Notes under the pieces: model-generated
Seen by the model: only the letters and a program-made list of their open reading frames with translations
Databases searched by the model: none
What the model was told of the DNA's origin: nothing
Assembly (NCBI GenBank): GCA_017434855.1
Contig: JAFRUA010000072.1
Location: forward strand, 1-58,198
DNA from: Clostridia bacterium
Lineage (GTDB): Bacteria > Bacillota > Clostridia > Oscillospirales > Acutalibacteraceae
Direction of reading: 5' to 3'
DNA length: 58,198 bases
Part shown: positions 40,996 to 55,777 of the stretch, piece by piece
How the letters are laid out: the number at the start of each line of letters is the position of its first letter
Numbering within the stretch: the stretch's first letter is position 1
Made by a program: the position numbers and the translations under genes

Positions 40996-42801
40996 TTAAT
41001 ACCGCGCGCCGAAGAGCTTGGCGAAGATGCCGTGGAAGAAGCCGATGATGCCTTGGAAGAAGCCGTTATGCTGGCCGCCGCACCACGGGCAGACGCTCTC
41101 AGGCGTGCCGGGGTCGGGGGTGCCCGGGTCGGGCGTGCCGGGGTCGGTGGACGCATCCTTCTCGAACTTCGCGGTGACGGTGACGTTCTCGGTCGCGCCG
41201 AATTTGTAGACCTCGCTGTCCTCGACCTTGGTGTTGCCTTCGTACCAGCCGACGAAGTGGTAGCCGCTGTTGGGCGTGGCAGTCAATATCACGAGCTCGT
41301 GGTAGTGGTAGGTGCCGCCGCCGGTGACCGTGCCGCCTTCGCTCACAGGCGTGATGACTTCATAGTTCACAGCGTCGTTCTTCTCAAACTTCGCTTTCAG
41401 GGTGATGTCCTTTTTCAGGACGAATTGCCAGTCCTCGCCGTCGTTGAACTTGGTGTTGCCTTCGTACCAGCCGACGAAGTGGTAGCCGCTGTTGGGCGTA
41501 GCCACGACGTGCGCCCATGTCAGATCATTCGTATAGGTAATGCTGCTGGTGACCGTGCCGCCCGCCGCCGGGTCGGCAATCACAGTCACGGTGTAAGCAG
41601 TGGTGAATTTCGCCGTGTAATTGAGGCTGCTCGTCCCGTCGGGCACCGTGAAGGTGTAGCTTTTGTTGGTGGACAAGCGGGTGCCGCCCTGATACCAGCC
41701 GTCGAATTTGTAGCCGGTTTTGGGCGTGGCCTTGACGGTCACGCTTGCGCCGACGCCGTAGTCGCCGGCGCCGGTCACCGTGCCGCCCGCCGCCGGGTTG
41801 ACCGTCACGTTCACCGTGCGGATCTTGTTGCCCGCCGAATACAGGCCCGGGTTGACGGTCGTGTCAGAGGTCGTGTCGGCCTCCAAAATGCAGTGAGGGC
41901 GAATGCCGTTACTCGTAGAATAGACAAGGAAAGAATTAGCTGCTATTGACCCATTAGAGACACCATAAACATACTGTCCCGAACTATGTGCGTCATCCCG
42001 CAGTATCCAGTTGGAATAGCCGTCGCTTTCTACCTTAAGTCCCTGACACTCCGCGTAGTCGGTGCCTGTGACCCTTCTGGAGGAAGTGGGGACATAGTAG
42101 TCATTCGCCGCCTCGGATCTGGTAAGCAAATAGATCATGGAATGTATCTTTCGCTGCTGGGCGGCTGTGAACGCGGTGTTGAGGAAGTCCTCGTTCAGCC
42201 AGGCGTGGATGGACGACCGATCATAATGGTTGGCGTAAACGGACGAGGTTCCGATGTAGTAGTTGCCGCTTTCTTCGCGCACGACATTCTGATACGCCTG
42301 CGCGTCGATGATGCTCTCGCAGATAGCATAGCACCTCGTGCCGCCGTTATCCACCACGCGCCACGTCAGCGGCTCATACTCGAAATAATAGGTGGTGTCT
42401 GTCACATAGCCGTTGTCGTCCTGATAGGAGCGGGAAGCGACGGGGCCCCAATTGGTGGCATACGGTCTGTAGTAGTTGAATTTCACGGCGCGGTATTTGA
42501 CGCCGTTCAGGAAGAAATCGGCAAACTGCATATACCTTCCGACCATCATCGTCCCATCGACTCTGGGATCATTGGTGCTGCCATATCCAATATAATAGTC
42601 ATAGGATTTCCACGTTGCGTTGTTTGCGGCATTTTTGAGCGCCGTGGTTTCGTTGACCCGCGTCTGCGGATAGGTGCCGAAATGGATATAGTGATAGCTA
42701 TACTCCGCGCTCGCCGTGAAGCACACCGCAAGGCAAGACACGGTCAGCACGACCAGAAGGACGGATAAAAGAATGGATAAGAGTTTTTTGCTCGTTTTCA
42801 T
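40996..42801 (-). CDS. Secreted DUF6273-like protein with bacterial repeats and CPWCGG...FGARY tail
   Basis: A 601-residue exported protein. After a signal peptide (MKTSKKLLSILLSVLLVVL) comes a roughly 280-residue domain of DUF6273 type (IHFGTYPQT, EPLTWRVVD, SSIHAWLNEDFLNTAFTAAQ). Three InlB/Listeria-Bacteroides-type repeats follow (GGTVTG..., TPKTGYKFDGWYQGG; TPNSGYHFVGWYEGNTKF twice); two share a 47-bp DNA repeat. A Pro/Thr/Asp linker leads to SVCPWCGGQHNGFFQGIIGF and a Phe-rich FGARY end shared with the 14430-16124 protein. No LPxTG motif. The ATG at 42801 lies 9 nt after GGAG; an earlier ATG overlaps it. A surface adhesin or sensor-like role is inferred only from domains. Confidence 0.82.
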   Translation of the reverse strand: MKTSKKLLSILLSVLLVVLTVSCLAVCFTASAEYSYHYIHFGTYPQTRVNETTALKNAANNATWKSYDYYIGYGSTNDPRVDGTMMVGRYMQFADFFLNGVKYRAVKFNYYRPYATNWGPVASRSYQDDNGYVTDTTYYFEYEPLTWRVVDNGGTRCYAICESIIDAQAYQNVVREESGNYYIGTSSVYANHYDRSSIHAWLNEDFLNTAFTAAQQRKIHSMIYLLTRSEAANDYYVPTSSRRVTGTDYAECQGLKVESDGYSNWILRDDAHSSGQYVYGVSNGSIAANSFLVYSTSNGIRPHCILEADTTSDTTVNPGLYSAGNKIRTVNVTVNPAAGGTVTGAGDYGVGASVTVKATPKTGYKFDGWYQGGTRLSTNKSYTFTVPDGTSSLNYTAKFTTAYTVTVIADPAAGGTVTSSITYTNDLTWAHVVATPNSGYHFVGWYEGNTKFNDGEDWQFVLKKDITLKAKFEKNDAVNYEVITPVSEGGTVTGGGTYHYHELVILTATPNSGYHFVGWYEGNTKVEDSEVYKFGATENVTVTAKFEKDASTDPGTPDPGTPDPGTPESVCPWCGGQHNGFFQGIIGFFHGIFAKLFGARY

Positions 42802-42829
42802 GGGGGCCATCTCCTTTTCGTTTTTCTAT

Positions 42830-46606: not shown

Positions 46607-47332
46607 TTACGGCTCGTATTCAAACGCTGGCATCAATTGCAGCTTGAACAGGTTCAGTTTGTGCAGACGGTCGATGCGCGCCTTGTGCTCGGCGTTTTCG
46701 ATCACGCCCTCGCGGATGTAGCGGTCCAGCTCGGCATAGGTGAAACCGAGGTTGTCCTCATCCGTTTTGCCGGACAGGCCGTCGATGGGCACCTTGTCCA
46801 CCAGTTCCGCGGGCAGCCCGAGCAGCCGGCCGATCGCCTTGACCTCGCCGACCGTCAGGTGTGACATGGGGCTGAAATCGCCGGCCGCGTCGCCGTACCG
46901 CGTGGAATAGCCGACCCAATCCTCCGACAGGTTGCAGGTGTTGACCACCCGGCCGTTGTGGGTCTGCGAGACTGCGTACAGCGTCGCCATACGGATGCGC
47001 GCAGGCAGGTTGGTCGTGCTCTGCTTTGACAGCGGGAACGGGATCGCGTTGGTGACGCCGTCCACCGCGTCTTTGATGTTGACGACGAAGTGACGGATCC
47101 CAAGATGATCCGCCAGCTTTTGGGCGCAGTCAATGTCGGCCTGCTCGCCGCAAGGCATCAGCACGCCGATCACACGGTCCTTGCCCAGCGCCTCGACGCA
47201 CAGCGCCGCCGCAACCGAGCTGTCTTTGCCGCCGGAAATGCCGATGACCGCGTTGCAGCCGGGGCCGTTTTCTTCAAAGAACGCGCGGATCCATGCCACG
47301 CAGTCGTTTTTCACCTGTTCTGCGTTGAACAT
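46607..47332 (-). CDS. nadE: NAD+ synthase, ammonia-dependent
   Basis: A 241-residue enzyme that amidates deamido-NAD using ATP and ammonia. The ATP-pyrophosphatase P-loop SGGKDSS is at residues 33-39, with NTCNLSEDWVGYSTRYGDAAGDFSP as the deamido-NAD contact region (given here in parts: NTCNLSEDWVGYST). It lacks the glutaminase domain of longer NadE forms, so it uses free ammonia. The ATG follows AAAGGAGG. It is downstream of fba with an intervening terminator. Confidence 0.95.
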   Translation of the reverse strand: MFNAEQVKNDCVAWIRAFFEENGPGCNAVIGISGGKDSSVAAALCVEALGKDRVIGVLMPCGEQADIDCAQKLADHLGIRHFVVNIKDAVDGVTNAIPFPLSKQSTTNLPARIRMATLYAVSQTHNGRVVNTCNLSEDWVGYSTRYGDAAGDFSPMSHLTVGEVKAIGRLLGLPAELVDKVPIDGLSGKTDEDNLGFTYAELDRYIREGVIENAEHKARIDRLHKLNLFKLQLMPAFEYEP

Positions 47333-47349
47333 TTCGTATCCTCCTTTTC

Positions 47350-47379
47350 AAAAGCGGCGCACCCCAAACGAGATGCGCC
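47350..47379 (-). terminator. Terminator of fba
   Basis: Stem GGCGCA / TGCGCC plus flanking pairs, about 12-nt loop, followed on the minus strand by GCTTTTG, 25 bases after the fba stop and just before the nadE ribosome site. Confidence 0.65.
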
Positions 47380-47403
47380 TGTGTTGTAACCATTGACTTA
47401 CAG

Positions 47404-48339
47404 TTATGCTTTACCCGCACAGCCCAAAACGTCATTGATCTTGTGTTCGACCATGCCTTGAATCGCCGCTCTTGCCGGCTTGAGGTACTGGCGCGGATCG
47501 AAGTGATCCGGATGCTCGGCAAAGTGCTTGCGGATCGCCGCCGTCATTGCAAGACGCAGGTCCGAGTCGATGTTGATTTTGCAGACCGCCATGGTCGCGG
47601 CCTTGGCCAGCATCTCTTCGGGAATGCCGATGGCGTCCGGCATCTGGCCGCCGTATTGGTTGATCTCTTTGACGAATTCCTGCGGAACCGAGGACGCGCC
47701 GTGCAGCACGATCGGGAACCCGGGCAGCTTTTTGCTGACCTCTTCCAGAATGTCGAAGCGAAGCTGCGGCTTCTGGCCGGGCTTGAACTTATAGGCGCCG
47801 TGCGACGTGCCGATCGCGATGGCGAGGGAATCCACGCCCGTGCGGGTCACAAAGTCATAGACCTGATTCGGGTCGGTGTAGCTGGCGTTGCCCTCTTCCA
47901 CCGCAACGTCGTCTTCCACGCCGGCCAGGGTGCCGAGCTCGCCTTCCACAACCACGCCGTGCGCGTGCGCATAGTCGACGACCTTTTTGGTCACCGCGAC
48001 GTTCTCTTCGTACGGCAGGGAGGAGCCGTCGATCATAACAGAAGTGAAACCGCCGTCAATGCAGCTTTTGCAGGTCTCAAAATCCGGGCCGTGGTCCAGA
48101 TGCAGCGCGATGGGCAGCCCCGTTTCTTTTTCCGCCGCCTCGACGAGCTTGACAAGATAGGTGTGGTTCGCATAGGCGCGCGCGCCCTTGGACACCTGAA
48201 GGATCAGGGGGGCGTTCAGCTTTTTGGCCGCTTCGGTGATGCCCTGGATGATTTCCATGTTGTTGACGTTGAACGCGCCGATGGCATAGCCGCCCTCATA
48301 GGCGTCCTTGAACATTTTTGTGGTTGTGACTAATGGCAT
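47404..48339 (-). CDS. fba: Class II fructose-bisphosphate aldolase
   Basis: A 311-residue zinc aldolase that cleaves fructose-1,6-bisphosphate in glycolysis. Zinc and catalytic residues lie in HLDHGPDFETC, the IGTSHGAYKF phosphate loop and LHGASSVP. The length suggests the IIA subtype. The ATG at 48339 follows AAGGAG; the first in-frame ATG at 48366 lacks a ribosome site. It lies 68 bases downstream of the SpoIID-like gene. Confidence 0.97.
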   Translation of the reverse strand: MPLVTTTKMFKDAYEGGYAIGAFNVNNMEIIQGITEAAKKLNAPLILQVSKGARAYANHTYLVKLVEAAEKETGLPIALHLDHGPDFETCKSCIDGGFTSVMIDGSSLPYEENVAVTKKVVDYAHAHGVVVEGELGTLAGVEDDVAVEEGNASYTDPNQVYDFVTRTGVDSLAIAIGTSHGAYKFKPGQKPQLRFDILEEVSKKLPGFPIVLHGASSVPQEFVKEINQYGGQMPDAIGIPEEMLAKAATMAVCKINIDSDLRLAMTAAIRKHFAEHPDHFDPRQYLKPARAAIQGMVEHKINDVLGCAGKA

Positions 48340-48407
48340 GATACATTCTCCTTTTTTATTTTGCATCTATTACATCTGCGGCAAAGCGCCGCAATCATAA
48401 CCGCGAT

Positions 48408-50579
48408 TTATGCGCCGGGGGTATAGACCAGCTTGAAGCAGTGCGAGCGGATGCGGCCTTCCATCAGCTTGCTGCGGAATTCGTTGCCGGTGATCACCTT
48501 GCCGCCGACGTTGACGGTGGAAACATAGCCGATGTCGGCGTTGACCGCCTGGTCATGCGTCAGCACGGTGATCCAGGTCGACGGGTCGCCGTTGAGCTCC
48601 ACGCTGAGGTTTTTGCTGGCCAGCGCCTTGAGATCTGCGCTGGAGATCGAGAAGGTCGTTTGATACCCCGTCGCGTTCTGGTCAAACCAACTGGGCCGGC
48701 CGCCGCGCAGATACGGATAATCGTTCGTCCCGCCCCAAACATTGACAAAGGATGTGGTCTTGCCCGCGCTGGTGGCATGGAACGGAGTCAGCGCGGTCTG
48801 CCCGTTATAGGACAGATACAGTCCGGCCTGCATGACCTCATCCACAACCGACAGGCACTGCTGCGACGGCTCTTTGCCATAGGCGTTGGCGCTGGTGTTC
48901 AGGTTGAAGTTGTTATACTTTGCAAAGGTATACAGCGCAACCGCCTGGGCTTTCAGCGCCTCACGCTGAGAGGAGCCGCTCATTTCGGCTTCCAGCGCAG
49001 AGGCGAGGTATTGCCGGGTTTCATAGGCCGCGCCGCCGTAATTGATCGACGCGGGATACACGTCGCCGAACACCAGTGTCGTACCGTAATAATAATTGGC
49101 AAGGATCTGTGCATAATCCCAGCCGATGCTGGCCAGATAGTTTGCACCGGTCTGGCTCAGGCCGACGCCGTGGCCGTAGCCGAACACATAGAAGGTGAAC
49201 GTGCCGCTGGTGGACGGCGCAGGGGCGGCGGTGGGCGAAGCGGAAACATCGGTTGCGGCCGGTTCTGCCGGCGCAAGATAATTGCCGGGAACATCTGCCG
49301 GCGGCGTGGTCTGTGACGTCGGCACGGTCGGCAGCGTGGTTTGGTCCGGCACCTGGCTGCTCACGGTCGGCAGCGTCGATTGGTCGCTCACACCCACTGC
49401 GGATTGCGAGACGTCTGAAACGGTGGGTTCTTCCGTATTCTTGGCGTGCATCATCTTCCAGACAATGACGGTCGGCACAAGGATTGCCGCAAGCAGAATC
49501 AGCGCAGCAAAGACAACGATGCCCTTTGAAATCTTTTTATCCTGCCCCGGCGCGCCGGCGGTTCCGGGCGTCAGCGCCATGGTTTGTTCGGCGCTGTCGC
49601 TGTCCTGAACCTTTTGACAGATCGTGTCAAACAGCACCATGATGCAGTGCGGCAGCATCAGCCGCAGGTCCGCATCCGAAGAGGTGGTGACCTTTTTTGC
49701 CTTGGTCCCGTCCTTGTCGGAAACGGCGACCAGCGCGAAATAGCTTTGCCCGTCTACCCGCTCATCTGAAAAGATATCGGAAATCGCGGCGCCATACTCT
49801 GCGCCGGACTGCGCGCGCGCATCCTTTGCCCTGCGCAGGATCGCGGCAAACGGCGTTTCATCCTCGGCCTGCGTCTGCATATCCATGGGAACAAACTCAA
49901 TGCAGTCTGAAAAATGCTCCACCGTCTGCGGCAGCCCGGCCAGCAGCGAAGTCGCGTCGCCCTGGGCCAGGGCCAGCCGGCAGTCGTTTTGCGTCAGGAC
50001 CGAGATCACCCGGCGCGCCGGCGTTTCAAAATCCACTGCCGCGTCCGGCGTTTCGGTCGGCGCCTCATCCGCTGCCGCGGGCTGGGCCGGGGCAGAAAAG
50101 GAACGGATCAACGCTTCCAGCACACGGTCCAGCCGTGTGAAATCCAGGGGCAGAAGTGTCACCGCGCCGGCGCCGGACGGCACCGTAAAGCCGCTGAACA
50201 ACCCGTCCTCGGTCAAAAGAGGCATGCTGCCGTCGGCAATGATGCAGTGCGCCCGACTGTCGACCGCCTGGGTCTTTTCACCGTCCTCGGCCAGATACTG
50301 CGCCATCGCGTCCGCAACCTCCGGCGAAAAGCGCTCTGCCAGATTCAGCTTTGCAATCAGGCTGCGCTTGACCGCCAGATAATCGCCGGTTTCCGCAGCG
50401 ACCAGCACGGTGTCGCCGTCCTCTGCCGCAAAGCGCGACGCGGTCAGCATGGCGTCATAGTTTTCAAAGCTTTGAAGATTCTCCTCCAGCAGCCCATAGG
50501 GTTCCAGCGTCAGACAGATCTTATAAACGGCGTCTGATGAAAAGGCCGAAAGATTTTCTAATGTAAACAGCTTGATCAT
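48408..50579 (-). CDS. Membrane protein: degenerate CinA-like domain plus permuted SpoIID/LytB domain
   Basis: A 723-residue protein starting MIKLFTLENLSAFSSDAVYK after GGAGG. Residues 1-320 resemble the neighbouring CinA in layout (GSMPLLTEDGLFSGF for its G...N-x-x-G-x-x-x-G segment, then GAEYGAAISDIF and YFALVAVSDKDGTK) but lack the CinA catalytic T-A-E-S-C and A-G-P-G motifs. A membrane helix lies at about 350-375, followed by a Pro/Thr/Ser-rich stalk (about 380-450). The outside part is a SpoIID domain in unusual order: GYGHGVGLSQTGANYLA at about 465 comes before ALEAEMSG...REALKAQAVALYTF (catalytic Glu about 532) and IRSHCFKL at about 710; normally the GHGVGMSQ block is C-terminal. SpoIID enzymes are lytic transglycosylases acting on denuded glycan. 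Activity here is inferred from the retained Glu. Confidence 0.8.
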   Translation of the reverse strand: MIKLFTLENLSAFSSDAVYKICLTLEPYGLLEENLQSFENYDAMLTASRFAAEDGDTVLVAAETGDYLAVKRSLIAKLNLAERFSPEVADAMAQYLAEDGEKTQAVDSRAHCIIADGSMPLLTEDGLFSGFTVPSGAGAVTLLPLDFTRLDRVLEALIRSFSAPAQPAAADEAPTETPDAAVDFETPARRVISVLTQNDCRLALAQGDATSLLAGLPQTVEHFSDCIEFVPMDMQTQAEDETPFAAILRRAKDARAQSGAEYGAAISDIFSDERVDGQSYFALVAVSDKDGTKAKKVTTSSDADLRLMLPHCIMVLFDTICQKVQDSDSAEQTMALTPGTAGAPGQDKKISKGIVVFAALILLAAILVPTVIVWKMMHAKNTEEPTVSDVSQSAVGVSDQSTLPTVSSQVPDQTTLPTVPTSQTTPPADVPGNYLAPAEPAATDVSASPTAAPAPSTSGTFTFYVFGYGHGVGLSQTGANYLASIGWDYAQILANYYYGTTLVFGDVYPASINYGGAAYETRQYLASALEAEMSGSSQREALKAQAVALYTFAKYNNFNLNTSANAYGKEPSQQCLSVVDEVMQAGLYLSYNGQTALTPFHATSAGKTTSFVNVWGGTNDYPYLRGGRPSWFDQNATGYQTTFSISSADLKALASKNLSVELNGDPSTWITVLTHDQAVNADIGYVSTVNVGGKVITGNEFRSKLMEGRIRSHCFKLVYTPGA

Positions 50580-50619: not shown

Positions 50620-52071
50620 TTAATAGACCGACCAGCGGGGACTGCTTGCATATGGGTTGGTTTTTTTCTTGCTGTCATACCACGCCTGCGGGTAGCGGGG
50701 GGTGGCGTTCCACACAGCGCGCGACGTGTCGACCCCGGTGCTTTCGCCCGGCCGCACCAGCCGCGCCACCACCACCAGCCGCGCCTCGTTGAATTCATGC
50801 GAGCAGGTGGACAGCGTCAAAAGCTTGTCGCTTGGCAAAACGTCAACGCCGGTGTCATAGATCGACCGCTGCGCCAGCTCGTTGAGATAGGACGCGCGCT
50901 TTTCTTCCGACGCAAGATTGGTAAAGAAGTAATTGAACAGGTAGCCGCCGTCTTCGGCCGGTTCGGAATTTGTGATGAACACGGCAAAGACCTTCCAGCT
51001 GTAATCGTGATAGAGCGTGTTGAACTGAATGACCGGGGCTTTTTTATACCCGTCCAGCGACTTATAGTTGTCCAGCGTACCAAAAATGGTGTTGTTGTTC
51101 ATGTGGTGCCCGTAGATCACGGTGTTGGTATCGAGCGCGTCGATCCGGTTCAGGCAGGAAACAAACGGGCAGCCGTATTTTGTATCCTGCTTGTCAAAGT
51201 TTTTATAGAGATAATCGCCGTCGTTGCGCGTCTGGACGACCGGCAGGCTCAGCCCGATCCCGTCAGCTTCCAGATAGCCGACAAAATCCTGATTGCGCGC
51301 ATAATAATTCGCGTATTTGAACTGCATATTCTGCGGGAACGTCACGTTCGGGTGCTGTTCGCGGATCTGCTGCCACATCTGCTCGTCGGTCAGCTCGATC
51401 ACGTTGCCGACAGCGTCCATCGTGGTGCCGCGCGCAATGGTATATTCCTCCTGCGCCAGCTCGTCGCTGAGTTCGTCATTTTCTTTTGCGGCAAAATGCT
51501 CCCGCGCCAGCCAAACGCCGCCGCCCACGATCGCGATCAGGCAAACGACCATCGCCGCAATGAACAGAATCTTTTTCCATTTTGCTTTCGCGTGCGTTTC
51601 TTCGTCGCCCGGCTGTGCGATATCAAGCTCTTCCACGGCAAGCGCGGTGCCCTCCGGCGCGGTCACGGGCGCCGGTTTCGGCAGCGGAATCTCCCGCGCA
51701 GCGGCGTCGATCTCGTCCACGGCAAAGCTGCCGATCGCTTCGGTCGCCGCCGTCATCGGCTCAGTCTCTGTCAGCGAAAAATCCTCGGTCTCCGTCATGG
51801 TGCCCGGCCGCTCTTTCGGTTCAAAGTCCGTGCTTTGGAACACGATGCGCGTACCGGTGTTCACACCCTCCGGCAGTCCCTCCAGCCGCGCTTCCGGCTG
51901 CGGTTGGGCCGCCGGCTGGGGCTGGGGCTGCGTGGTCAGCATCTGCTGCAGCAGCACGGTGATCTGATCGTCGGAAAGCTGGGACTGCGGTTCCGGCTGT
52001 GTCGGTTCCTGCGGCCATTGGCGCTTCGCCTCCTCCGGACGGATGTCGCCGTCGTTGTAAATGTTTCTCAT
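50620..52071 (-). CDS. srtB: Class B sortase with long cytoplasmic N-terminal tail
   Basis: A 483-residue cysteine transpeptidase. The N-terminal 160 residues are a Gln/Pro/Glu-rich cytoplasmic tail, one membrane helix is at about 165-188 (KKILFIAAMVVCLIAIVGGG), and the outside part is a sortase B fold: VIYGHHMNN supplies the His (about 320), LTLSTCSHEF the Cys (about 420) and VVVARL the Arg (about 432). Class B enzymes usually recognise NPQTN-like signals, but no such substrate is visible in the window. The ATG overlaps the cinA stop by four bases (ATGA). Confidence 0.92.
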   Translation of the reverse strand: MRNIYNDGDIRPEEAKRQWPQEPTQPEPQSQLSDDQITVLLQQMLTTQPQPQPAAQPQPEARLEGLPEGVNTGTRIVFQSTDFEPKERPGTMTETEDFSLTETEPMTAATEAIGSFAVDEIDAAAREIPLPKPAPVTAPEGTALAVEELDIAQPGDEETHAKAKWKKILFIAAMVVCLIAIVGGGVWLAREHFAAKENDELSDELAQEEYTIARGTTMDAVGNVIELTDEQMWQQIREQHPNVTFPQNMQFKYANYYARNQDFVGYLEADGIGLSLPVVQTRNDGDYLYKNFDKQDTKYGCPFVSCLNRIDALDTNTVIYGHHMNNNTIFGTLDNYKSLDGYKKAPVIQFNTLYHDYSWKVFAVFITNSEPAEDGGYLFNYFFTNLASEEKRASYLNELAQRSIYDTGVDVLPSDKLLTLSTCSHEFNEARLVVVARLVRPGESTGVDTSRAVWNATPRYPQAWYDSKKKTNPYASSPRWSVY

Positions 52072-53372
52072 GCAGTCATATCCTTCACATCATAATCAAT
52101 GGGTTGCCCGCCCGGGCGAGTTTCCGGCGCAAACAGCGCAAACAGACGCAGCTCGTTGAGCACATGGGTGGCAAACACCGTGCGGTTGTAATCCCGGCAG
52201 CCTTTGCCGCCGGCGTGCCCGGTCTGCACCGCTTTGGTCCAGACGGTTTTGCCGTCTGTGGACGCGATATACGCAAGCCCCGCGCTGCGGCCCGTTTCGT
52301 CCGGGCCGGGACCGGCCAGCCCCGTGATGGCGGCGGCCACCGACGCGCCGGACCGTTTCCATGCGCCGATCGCCATTTCGGCCGCAACCGCTTCGCTGAC
52401 AACGGTCTGCGCTTTGATCGTTTCATGCTTCACGCCCAGCAGGGCCTCTTTGGTGTCTGCGGCATAGGTCACAAATCCGCAGCGCAGAACTTCGGACGCG
52501 CCGGGAATGTCGGTGATCCGCTTTGTGACCAGCCCCGCCGTGCAGGATTCCGCCGTCGCCATGGTCAGTCCCTTTTCTTTGAACAGGGCCACCGTCGCGG
52601 CCTCCATGCTCGGCACGTCGACGCCGTAGATCACGTCGCCCAGCCGGCTGTGAATCTCGCCGATCACCGGGGCAAGCAGCGCGTTCGCTTCGGCCGCGGT
52701 CTCTGCCTTCGCGGTCACACGCAGCAGCGCTTCGCCGCTTTTGGCATAGGGCGCAACCGTCGGGTTTTCCAGACTCAGCAGATCGTCGACCCGCTGCGCC
52801 ATGGCGCTTTCGCCGATGCCGAAGGTGCGGATCTCTTTTGACAGGATCACGCCGCTTGTGAACGGCTTCAGATACGGCACGGCGCTTTCTTCAAACATCG
52901 CCTGCATTTCACGCGGGGGGCCGGGCAAAATGAGAATGTGCTTCCCGTCCTTTTCCATCGCGCAGCCGGGCGCCGTTCCGTTGTTGTTGTCAAAAATCAC
53001 CGCGCCCCGCGGCAGCATCGCCTGCTTTGCGTTTGAGGGCGGCATTTCTATGCCCTTGTTTTCAAAAAATGCGGTGATGCGCGCCAGACTGCGTGCGTCC
53101 GGCTCCAGCGCAAGCCCGAACACCGCGGCGCAGACCTCTTTGGTCAGGTCGTCTTTCGTCGGGCCCAGGCCGCCGGTGGTCAGCACCGCGTCGCTGCGCG
53201 AAAGCGCGATCTGCAGCGTTTCGGCCAGCCGTTCCGGGTTGTCGCCGACGACGGACTGGTGCACCACGGAGACGCCGAGCGCGGCCAGCCGTTTTGAAAG
53301 GTACTGCGCGTTGGTATTGAGAATGTCGCCCAGCAGCAGCTCGGTGCCGACAAACACCAGTTCACACGTCAT
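52068..53372 (-). CDS. cinA: CinA-family protein (MoCF domain plus nicotinamide nucleotide amidase)
   Basis: A 434-residue protein of two domains: an N-terminal MoCF/COG1058 pyrophosphatase-like domain (FVGTELLLGDILNTNAQYL; TTGGLGPTKDDLT; LPGPPREMQAMFEE) and a C-terminal nicotinamide-nucleotide amidase domain (TAESCTAGL; ITGLAGPGPDE). CinA recycles pyridine nucleotides and is linked to competence in some species. The ATG at 53372 follows AAAGGGAG; a longer frame is unlikely. It is third in the nifS-thiI-cinA-srtB-spoIID run, and overlaps srtB by four bases. Confidence 0.95.
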   Translation of the reverse strand: MTCELVFVGTELLLGDILNTNAQYLSKRLAALGVSVVHQSVVGDNPERLAETLQIALSRSDAVLTTGGLGPTKDDLTKEVCAAVFGLALEPDARSLARITAFFENKGIEMPPSNAKQAMLPRGAVIFDNNNGTAPGCAMEKDGKHILILPGPPREMQAMFEESAVPYLKPFTSGVILSKEIRTFGIGESAMAQRVDDLLSLENPTVAPYAKSGEALLRVTAKAETAAEANALLAPVIGEIHSRLGDVIYGVDVPSMEAATVALFKEKGLTMATAESCTAGLVTKRITDIPGASEVLRCGFVTYAADTKEALLGVKHETIKAQTVVSEAVAAEMAIGAWKRSGASVAAAITGLAGPGPDETGRSAGLAYIASTDGKTVWTKAVQTGHAGGKGCRDYNRTVFATHVLNELRLFALFAPETRPGGQPIDYDVKDMTA

Positions 53373-53400
53373 GCGCAGTCTCTCCCTTTCTGTAAAAATC

Positions 53401-54570
53401 TTATGCGTCAATGTTATAGTGCGCCGTTCTGCGGACCGCGTCGTCGATCAGCGTGTCAAAATCCACGGCGGCTTCGGCCTCTTCGATCATGGAAAGCACG
53501 GGCCGCGTTTTGGGGTGCTTCGGCGTAAAGACCGTGCAGCAGTCCTCATACGGCAGCAGCGACGTTTCAAACGAATCGATCTTTCGCGCGATCTCGATGA
53601 TCTCGTCCTTGTCCATCCCGATCAGCGGGCGCAGCACCAGTTTGGTCGCCACCGCGTCGGTGCAGGCCAGGGCGTCCACGGTCTGCGACGCCACCTGCCC
53701 CAGACTTTCGCCGGTAATCAGCGCCTTGCACTCGCGCTCTTCGGCCAGGCGCAGCGCAATCTTCATCATCAGGCGCCGCATGATGAGGGTAAACATATCC
53801 TCGGGACAGTTGTCCTTGATTGTTTCCTGTATTTTTGTGAACGGCACCACCATCAGGTGGATCCGTCCGCTGTAGCGCGCCACGATCGCAGCCAGGTCCT
53901 TGACCTTTTCTTCCGCGCGGCGGCTGGTATAGGGCGGCGACGCAAAGTGCACCGCCTCCAGAATCATGCCGCGTTTGGCCATCATCCAGCCCGCAACGGG
54001 GCTGTCGATCCCGCCGGACAGCAGCAAACATGCCTTGCCGGACGAGCCGACGGGCAGACCGCCCGCCCCCTTCCACTGGTTTCCGTGGACCAGCACCTGG
54101 TCGCGGACCTCGACGGTCACGGTCAGTTCCGGCGCGTGGACGTCCACCTTCAGCGGCTGGATATTCGACAGGATGTGCGCACCCACCTCGCGGCAAATTT
54201 CCGGCGAGGTCATGGCAAAGCGCTTGTCGCTGCGCTTTCCGTTGACCTTGAAGGTGCGCACGGCGCGCAGATCGTCGCCGAGGAATTCCAGCGCCGTTTG
54301 CTTGATGGCTTCGATGTCTTTTTCACAGACCGCCGCAACCGAAAATCCGACGATGCCGAACACATGCTTCATACATTCAATCGCAAGGTCAAAGTCGATA
54401 TTGTCGTCATCCGGGATCACCGTGATCGTGGACTGCGATTTGTGGAACGTGAATGTGCCCGCGGGCGCCAGACGGCGGCGGATGTTTTTGATCAAAATAT
54501 CTTCAAATGTGGAACGGTTGAGACCTTTCAGAACGATCTCGCCGTTTTTCACAAGGATCACTTTTTTCAT
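53401..54570 (-). CDS. thiI: tRNA 4-thiouridine synthase ThiI
   Basis: A 389-residue enzyme that makes 4-thiouridine at position 8 of tRNA and may feed thiamine thiazole synthesis. It has an N-terminal ferredoxin-like and THUMP region, then the PP-loop SGGIDSPVA near residue 186 and the FEDCCTVFTPKHP-like segment (LPYEDCCTVFTPKHPKT). There is no C-terminal rhodanese domain, as in Firmicutes; the adjacent cysteine desulfurase gene supplies sulfur. The desulfurase gene ends 17 bases upstream, the common nifS-thiI pairing. Confidence 0.96.
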   Translation of the reverse strand: MKKVILVKNGEIVLKGLNRSTFEDILIKNIRRRLAPAGTFTFHKSQSTITVIPDDDNIDFDLAIECMKHVFGIVGFSVAAVCEKDIEAIKQTALEFLGDDLRAVRTFKVNGKRSDKRFAMTSPEICREVGAHILSNIQPLKVDVHAPELTVTVEVRDQVLVHGNQWKGAGGLPVGSSGKACLLLSGGIDSPVAGWMMAKRGMILEAVHFASPPYTSRRAEEKVKDLAAIVARYSGRIHLMVVPFTKIQETIKDNCPEDMFTLIMRRLMMKIALRLAEERECKALITGESLGQVASQTVDALACTDAVATKLVLRPLIGMDKDEIIEIARKIDSFETSLLPYEDCCTVFTPKHPKTRPVLSMIEEAEAAVDFDTLIDDAVRRTAHYNIDA

Positions 54571-54587: not shown

Positions 54588-55715
54588 TCAGGATTTGTTT
54601 CTCAGCGTTGCGATCGCTGCCCGCACCGCTTCAAAGCAGGCGTCCAGCTCTGCGGCGGTCGTTTCGTCGCACAGGCTGACGCGGATGGCGCCGTCGATAC
54701 GCCGGACGTCCAGGCCCGCCGCCGTCAGCACGGGGCTGCGGTGCCCCCTGGCACAGGCCGAACCGGAGGACACATACACGCCCCGGTCCGACAGCGCATT
54801 CAGCACCGTATCGGACCGCCAGCCGGGCAGCGAAAAGTTGATGATGTACGGCAACGCGTCGTCGCCGCTGTTGAGCATGACCTGCGGCAGGGCGCGCAGC
54901 TTTGACACGAACCCGTCGCGCAGCGCGGCGATCTGTTCGATCGGCGGAATGCGCATGGCCTTGACCGCAGCGCCAAAGCCCGCAATGGCCGGGGTCGCTT
55001 CCGTACCGGGGAACGCGCCGCCCTCCTGCTCGCCGCCCACCACGGTCGGGGTCAGACGGACGCCCGTTTTCACGAACAGTGCGCCGACGCCCTTGGGCCC
55101 GTGGACTTTGTGGGCGCTGACCGTCACAAGGTCCGCCCCCAGGCGCGAGACCGACACCGGCAGTTTGCCGAAGGCCTGCACCGCGTCAACATGCAGCAGC
55201 GCGGGCGACTGCTTTCGCCGCAGAATCGGCCGCAGCGCCTCCACCGGCTCCACCGTGCCCAGTTCGTTGTTGACCTTCATCACGCTGACCAGCACGGTAC
55301 CCGCGTCGATCAGCCGCTCGGCGGTCTCCAAATCAATCGTTCCGTATCGGTCCACAGGAATCTTCTGGACGTCAAAGCCCTCTTGAGCCAGGCGCTCGGC
55401 CGCTTTCATCACCGACGGGTGCTCCACGGCAGAGACCACCACGGTGTTCCCTTTTTTCTTTTGCGCGTGCGCCGCACCCAGCACAGCCAGGTTGTTGGCC
55501 TGGGTGCCGCTGCCGGTAAAGAGAACCTCTGCCGGCCGGCAGGACAGCGCCTTTGCCAGGGCGTCTTTGGCGTCCCGGACCAACCGCTGCGCTTCCCAGC
55601 CCTTTTGATGCAGGGAGGACGGGTTGCCCCAAACGGTTTCCATCGCCGCCAGCATGGCCTCTGCCGCCGCGCGGCAGGGGCGCGTTGTTGCGCTGTTATC
55701 CAGATAAGCCTCCAC
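54588..55715 (-). CDS. nifS: Cysteine desulfurase (IscS/NifS-type), sulfur donor for ThiI
   Basis: A 375-residue PLP enzyme that removes sulfur from cysteine as a persulfide. The PLP lysine lies in SAHKVHGPKG (about 198), the catalytic Cys in SSGSACARG (about 320); both are intact. The start is set at a GTG (55715) giving the usual EAYLDNSATTRP beginning, with AGAGGTG 7 nt upstream; the frame extends to 55760 but those residues are not typical. It is first in the operon with thiI and is preceded by a strong promoter. Confidence 0.95.
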   Translation of the reverse strand: MEAYLDNSATTRPCRAAAEAMLAAMETVWGNPSSLHQKGWEAQRLVRDAKDALAKALSCRPAEVLFTGSGTQANNLAVLGAAHAQKKKGNTVVVSAVEHPSVMKAAERLAQEGFDVQKIPVDRYGTIDLETAERLIDAGTVLVSVMKVNNELGTVEPVEALRPILRRKQSPALLHVDAVQAFGKLPVSVSRLGADLVTVSAHKVHGPKGVGALFVKTGVRLTPTVVGGEQEGGAFPGTEATPAIAGFGAAVKAMRIPPIEQIAALRDGFVSKLRALPQVMLNSGDDALPYIINFSLPGWRSDTVLNALSDRGVYVSSGSACARGHRSPVLTAAGLDVRRIDGAIRVSLCDETTAAELDACFEAVRAAIATLRNKS

Positions 55716-55748
55716 CCGGCGACACCTCTTCATGATAAAATTCATAAT

Positions 55749-55777
55749 ATTATACAACAATTTTATTTTATATGCAA
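55749..55777 (-). promoter_or_regulatory. Promoter of the nifS-thiI-cinA-srtB-spoIID operon
   Basis: On the minus strand TTGCAT (55772-55777), 17 bp, TATAAT (55749-55754), 34 bases before the GTG start. AT-rich spacer. Confidence 0.85.

Follow-up and report, generated by a model that had tools for sequence, protein, structure and literature searches.

Is the SpoIID/LytB domain encoded at 48408..50579 an enzyme fold that has been circularly permuted in nature, and what could such a protein do beside a sortase gene? The window analysed here is a stretch of 58,198 nucleotides from a Clostridia bacterium. The initial annotation, made from the sequence, had claimed that the motifs of this protein occur in permuted order, that the chain ends in a segment normally leading into the GHGVG block, and that a circular permutation with the catalytic Glu kept is the simplest explanation. 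The gene is divided as follows.

48408..50579, minus strand: whole gene, 723 residues, with a CinA-like module, a transmembrane helix and a SpoIID/LytB domain read as circularly permuted
49590..50579, minus strand: residues 1-330, CinA-like two-domain module (Foldseek and hhalign)
49443..49526, minus strand: residues 352-379, predicted membrane helix (AlphaFold2 helix; hydrophobicity read by eye)
49224..49442, minus strand: residues 380-452, Thr/Pro/Ser-rich linker, mostly of low confidence (pLDDT < 50 at 380-436)
49074..49205, minus strand: residues 459-502, GHGVG...YYYGT block, C-terminal in canonical SpoIID (5i1t 283-326; TIGR02669 222-268)
49020..49073, minus strand: residues 503-520, between the two aligned blocks, new joint in place of the old termini
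48411..49019, minus strand: residues 521-723, catalytic and middle blocks, N-terminal in canonical SpoIID (Pfam, PDB alignment, AlphaFold2)
48984..48986, minus strand: Glu532, putative catalytic residue, aligned to the EM-motif Glu of C. difficile SpoIID (E101)

The motif GYGHGVGLSQTGANYLA lies at about residues 467-483 and ANYYYGT at 494-500, EAEMSG...EALKAQAVALYTF follows at residues 530-552, and ITGNEFRSKL...IRSHCF is found near the C-terminus. The sole Pfam match in the protein is SpoIID (PF08486), at residues 520-581. The family profile TIGR02669 (SpoIID_LytB) matches at E 1.9e-32 with 113.3 bits (cut-off 83.3), a score summed over two stretches, and the better stretch, residues 456-502, falls on the last part of the profile (222-268 of 270). 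In the canonical relative L096, the match to TIGR02669 is a single in-order stretch. The sporulation equivalog TIGR02870 is not reached by the window protein (92.7 bits against a cut-off of 234.75). It is by its motifs and its best fold match, not by linear order, that the protein is SpoIID/LytB.

Comparison with solved structures shows how the blocks are crossed. In a PDB sequence search, residues 521-558, 568-704 and 459-502 align to residues 66-103, 136-268 and 283-326 (of 330) of 5i1t_A, and 5txu and 4rwr show the same crossing, with the GHGVG...YYYGT block (459-502) standing before the catalytic and middle blocks (521-704), the opposite of the order in the solved SpoIIDs. We built block and whole-domain profiles from 16 canonical SpoIIDs of the order; each block matches separately with them, and the C-terminal block precedes the N-terminal block in the window and in 29 of 29 other same-genus loci (L004-L032), the reverse of the reference SpoIIDs. 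The motif order and positions given in the initial annotation were thus borne out by PDB alignments, TIGR02669 and the block profiles, and the ending of the chain in the ITGNEFRSKL...IRSHCF segment by its position in the sequence.

If the domain is a circular permutant, restoring the canonical order should restore a colinear match. We rotated 37 permuted domains, shifting them by five residues at a time, and scored each as the best single stretch against the canonical profile. Rotation improved 35 of the 37 (mean 63 bits before and 112 after, the median rotation averaging 79), and L089 and L113 showed no gain. The window domain rose from 56.9 to 116.8 bits on rotation, while the range of the profile covered widened from 85-228 to 17-273. 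Ten canonical control domains rotated in the same way gained at most 3.0 bits.

The N-terminal half of the protein has another relative. No Pfam match, MoCF_biosynth and CinA included, was found in residues 1-330 up to E 10. Foldseek ranks full-length CinA (4uux_A) at the top for this part at E 6e-11, with a TM score by target of only 0.32, and single CinA N-domains (3kbq, 5kvk) give TM scores of 0.65-0.70. Comparison with the neighbouring CinA by hhalign gave a colinear alignment over 263 columns (probability 78, E 1.9e-5 in a single comparison). The fold and the profile comparison together suggest a relation to CinA. Because a membrane helix is predicted at 352-379, residues 1-330 would be cytoplasmic. 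The CinA-like module recurs in L101 (E 1e-28) and L102 (E 1e-29), and for 11 shorter permuted proteins the match to the module is a separate ORF in the same locus.

The neighbours of the gene in the window are listed below.

47404..48366, minus strand: class II fructose-bisphosphate aldolase, next downstream (Pfam)
50620..52071, minus strand: class B sortase-like protein, directly upstream (Pfam PF04203, E 9e-13)
52068..53411, minus strand: cinA, three CinA-type Pfam domains
53401..54570, minus strand: thiI (Pfam)
54588..55760, minus strand: class V aminotransferase, iscS-like (Aminotran_5; the name iscS is taken from the adjacency to thiI)

Against the class B sortase profile TIGR03064, the sortase-like protein scores E 1e-39 and 136.3 bits, below the cut-off of 153.75. 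We fetched 40 regions around SpoIID-type genes, selected for holding one, of which 32 are permuted and 8 canonical. A sortase lies close upstream in 26 of the 32 permuted regions, in some with a separate gene for the CinA module between, and the other 6 are without a sortase match. With X standing for the SpoIID-type gene, the full string iscS-thiI-cinA-srtB-X is present in 18 of the 26 sortase-bearing permuted regions, and iscS-thiI-cinA-srtB also precedes X in all 8 canonical ones. In L154-L157, from one genus, X pairs the N-terminal module of the permuted proteins with a SpoIID domain in canonical order, and cinA is a short ORF (161-171 residues). In L158-L161 (G330, G413, G456, G312), one sortase-like part is fused to cinA and another to the canonical SpoIID of X; L096, which is X of L158, reaches 109 bits with TIGR03064, under its cut-off. 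Read by eye, the sortase-like part of X in L096 and L097 appears to have neither the catalytic His nor the catalytic Cys, and it would be a pseudo-sortase.

Several features around these loci are recorded for completeness. Two to three sortase genes stand before the SpoIID gene in L133, L134, L139, L142, L144, L145, L147-L149, L153-L157, L162, L166 and L168. In the window, 40996-42810 on the minus strand encodes a protein of 604 residues with InlB-type B-repeats and DUF6273, possibly a surface protein given its place near the sortase locus. In L077 and L083, type I dockerin domains (E 2e-13 and 7e-13 with Pfam) stand before short permuted SpoIIDs, which suggests attachment to a scaffold. G033 holds, besides a canonical spoIID and its copy of the locus, another permuted SpoIID, which has an fn3 domain and lies roughly 1 kb downstream of spoIIP (L164, 8334-9767 and 10747-11937, both minus strand).

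That homologues share the permuted order was shown by genome searches. Among 59 genomes searched, 54 gave some match; 34 are of the window's genus, its own genome included, and 32 of these 34 carry the permuted gene on separate contigs, with G023 and G028 lacking it. Of the 32 carriers, 31 had their block order checked (G033 separately), and for G026 it is taken from a colinear match; G021 and G024 have the N-terminal part of the gene on a different contig. At E <= 1e-20 the domain was matched in 49 of 250 family genomes (26 genera). Forty-three rows from 42 of the 250 genomes and 20 genera are colinear with the permuted query, 41 of the 43 being order-checked; the row of G298 spans a stop in the search, and the G298 ORF holds both blocks. 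The other 7 family rows match the catalytic and middle part only and have the canonical order. Among the matches listed, a colinear one was also found in G466, from another family of the same order. Scans at a cut-off of 1e-38, strict enough that divergent permutants could be missed, found one further permuted genome in the class (391 genomes; G986, with 5% contamination) and none in the phylum (398 genomes) except the window's own genome. On viral contigs (42 loci), 39 ORFs had a block match: none was permuted, 31 were canonical and 8 partial.

Could the permuted domain be active? Glu532 aligns with the Glu of GEMSS in 5i1t, which we take to be E101 after matching the residue numbering; E101 is the major catalytic residue of C. 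difficile SpoIID according to PMC6934232. The statement of the initial annotation that the catalytic Glu is kept holds well beyond the window, as both Glu532 and His470 of GHG are invariant in 29 of 29 full-length rows and 37 of 37 permuted domain rows. A looser pattern of the catalytic block is present in 68 of the 71 permuted rows of the domain tree. The permuted domain is probably an enzyme, and a role as amidase enhancer also fits the sequence. PMC6934232 names C140, C146, H145 and H134 as zinc ligands of C. difficile SpoIID, and a figure legend there describes these ligands as found only in clostridial proteins. The stretch of 5i1t holding them (its offset being inferred from E101) is unaligned, with 32 residues there against 9 in the window, and by this alignment the zinc-site loop of C. 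difficile SpoIID is absent from the window protein.

The absent loop would also suit a protein that keeps the permuted fold and is no enzyme, serving as a LytB-like amidase activator or as a peptidoglycan-binding scaffold. In favour of such a role, PMC6934232 reports the suggestion that SpoIID stimulates SpoIIP as LytB does LytC, an effect seen for B. subtilis and not replicated for C. difficile, and L101, a canonical relative at the same locus, seems by eye to have lost the EM motif. It is the invariance of Glu532 and of the GHG His across all permuted domain rows that speaks against it, and we regard a permuted protein without enzyme activity as rather unlikely.

How often the order changed was addressed with a tree of 123 domains, comprising 71 permuted rows (69 genomes, 22 genera) and 52 canonical ones. 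The quick tree needs two order changes, and none of 500 shuffles was as low; L033, L094 and L118 have long branches in it and five rows an odd composition. The count of two comes from seven canonical rows, all of one genus, which the tree places in between permuted rows with an SH-aLRT support of 88. The order could accordingly have changed twice, with these seven rows at the locus being back-permutations or replacements. When the permuted rows were constrained to one clade, however, the likelihood was higher (+6.1) with a p-AU of 0.604, and degenerate GHG motifs and long branches blur the placement of the seven rows. We therefore consider a second change of order improbable; a single permutation event is compatible with the data, and the canonical order was presumably ancestral. 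The canonical-order copies of one genus in which the GHG motifs are degenerate are L101, L102, L117, L119-L121 and L123. L101 and L102 also have long Thr-rich tails, and the copies of this genus look as if they were losing activity.

Predicted structures were used to ask whether the two swapped parts form one fold. For the full protein, AlphaFold2 gave a mean pLDDT of 81 and a pTM of 0.45, with flexible linkers. The domain alone, modelled with 37 aligned permuted domains, is one compact domain with a mean pLDDT of 96.3 and a pTM of 0.92, the joint included; for the joint at 503-520 the block-mean pLDDT is 98-99. Among the best 50 of 67 Foldseek matches to this model, only 5i1t_A, C. difficile SpoIID, falls below E 0.001 (E 7e-8, TM 0.60 by query, 255 columns, rmsd 5.2, sequential alignment); these 50 do not include 4rwr, the SpoIID of B. 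anthracis. The part at 521-723 closes with the strand that forms the first arm of the canonical C-terminal hairpin. By sequence, the first (8-15) and last (263-270) strands of the domain are the two arms of that hairpin (compare L096-L102), which therefore places the new ends in its turn; the break appears to sit in this turn, and the two strands would pair in the domain model. In the 69 of 71 permuted proteins where the pattern was found, the chain runs on for a median of 12 residues (9-37) from the start of the SHCF-like motif, the last conserved one.

A different view is that there is no single fold, the GHGVG segment being a separate, shuffled wall-binding piece before an incomplete SpoIID domain. 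In native order, it is true, the blocks align to the canonical profile one at a time. The compact model with its high pTM, the shortness of the joint between the GHGVG and catalytic blocks, and the close and uniform ending of the permuted proteins after the SHCF-like motif argue strongly against a shuffled piece, as does the finding that no protein with two GHGVG blocks, as expected of a tandem intermediate, was present among the ORFs of the fetched loci; we judge this view very improbable. The lack of a tandem intermediate among these ORFs also weighs to some extent against the permutation itself. L094 (G049), suspected from its match pattern to be such an intermediate, was rejected when the block profiles gave an ordinary canonical order. 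An assembly artefact or a frameshift can be dismissed with near certainty, since the same order recurs on separate contigs in 32 of 34 genomes of the genus and in 20 genera of the family sample, the gene has no internal stop, and the loss of a second GHGVG block just past the stop, raised in the initial annotation as what would overturn its reading, failed in a six-frame search of 47000-48460 (nothing above -5.7 bits), where the next gene (fba) starts within tens of bases of the stop. With the crossed order, the rotation test, a single-domain model with SpoIID as its best PDB match, the many genomes and the canonical relatives at the same locus, the reading as a circular permutation is well supported: as far as sequence and predicted structure go, a known enzyme domain has here genuinely been permuted. 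The initial annotation does not mention the CinA-like half, the sortase locus or the loss of canonical spoIID.

The canonical gene seems to be missing from some of these genomes. In the window's own genome, which is 97.9% complete, TIGR02669 matches nothing but the permuted gene. A TIGR02870 match above the cut-off was found in 7 of 15 same-genus genomes; in G000, G004, G012, G016, G019, G022 and G025 every TIGR02870 match falls in the permuted gene, and G013 has a fragment of spoIID where a contig ends. Inspection of five genomes showed spoIID and a citrate synthase gene arranged head to head. The citrate synthase gene with at least 3.8 kb of contig on the spoIID side is available in G000, G022, G004, G019, G012 and G016, and a six-frame profile search of the stretches fetched from these six found no spoIID at this locus (nothing above 0.6 bits). 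Incomplete genomes as the reason for the missing spoIID are thus ruled out at the syntenic locus in the six; five of them are only 74-88% complete, and spoIID may possibly have moved to an unsequenced place. The contig of G025 starts at the citrate synthase gene and is uninformative on the loss.

The permuted protein is the sole SpoIID-type protein detected in the window's genome and five relatives. SpoIIP was found in all six genomes without spoIID (the G016 copy being partial, under the cut-off and at a contig edge), and SpoIVA in five of the six (partial in G016, none in G019). G001, G010 and G013, which keep the canonical gene or a fragment, nest among the spoIID-less genomes on the 123-domain tree, and therefore spoIID would have been lost at least three times if loss is irreversible. 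It is conceivable, though we hold it only tentatively and rather doubt it, that in some members of the genus the permuted enzyme replaced SpoIID in engulfment, with spoIID lost several times and its partner gene spoIIP and the spore gene spoIVA mostly kept; alternatively, sporulation may have been relaxed or lost. If the former is true, a probable spore former would have no SpoIID-type enzyme other than a permutant bearing a CinA module.

Taken together, we argue with good confidence that the window protein is a natural SpoIID/LytB permutant, most likely of one origin and most likely a membrane-anchored lytic transglycosylase that would work with a sortase. The old C-terminal GHGVG segment would have moved to the front: a cut in the turn of the C-terminal beta-hairpin would have created the new ends, and the short linker at residues 503-520 would connect the former ones. 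A single origin is most likely, in an ancestor within this bacterial family and at iscS-thiI-cinA-srtB-X. Most likely the protein would have glycan strands beyond the membrane as its substrate and Glu532 as its catalytic acid, a role proposed because of the invariance of this residue and the biochemistry of SpoIID. With the adjacent sortase or sortases, it could form a wall-remodelling or surface-anchoring module in which peptidoglycan is trimmed where the sortase works; the locus is what suggests this. In the window's subclade, the permuted protein may, speculatively, also serve engulfment.

We found no description of a circular permutation of SpoIID in our searches of open-access papers, and none of these papers linking SpoIID with sortase B, CinA or Ruminococcaceae (at least three together). 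Both chain orders of one domain occur here at one syntenic locus of one family with the same neighbours. This allows the permutation to be located on a tree, and its cut and joint to be assigned to the turn of a hairpin. The domain is a clean natural case of a reshuffled enzyme, with the halves swapped and the predicted fold and catalytic residue kept. It also shows that profile-based annotation splits such permutants, as each TIGR02669 stretch alone falls below the cut-off in a whole-genome search (60.4 and 58.2 bits). The finding also connects SpoIID-type domains with sortases and with a CinA-like module, and raises the possibility, open to testing, that a core sporulation enzyme was replaced.

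Among known systems, SpoIID (C. difficile 5I1T and 5TXU, B. anthracis 4RWR; PF08486, TIGR02870) shares with the window protein the blocks, the catalytic Glu, the best fold match and, by inferred topology, a membrane anchor ahead of an extracytoplasmic domain. The window protein differs in its permuted order, the absent zinc-site loop, the CinA-like module and linker, its position away from the spoIID locus and a score far under the TIGR02870 cut-off. With the SpoIID/LytB family (TIGR02669; LytB amidase enhancers) it shares the GHGVG...YY.GT and EM...EALKAQA motifs and a score above the family cut-off, whereas its two stretches stand in reversed order. CinA, the competence/damage-inducible protein, resembles the N-terminal half in fold and in the colinear hhalign alignment; the module, however, has no Pfam CinA match and is probably membrane-tethered, and a full-length cinA lies two genes away. 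The YaeF/YiiX-type NlpC/P60 enzymes (PMC3142127) are likewise a natural circular permutation of an enzyme fold; theirs is a different fold, and in the SpoIID case both orders are found at one syntenic locus.
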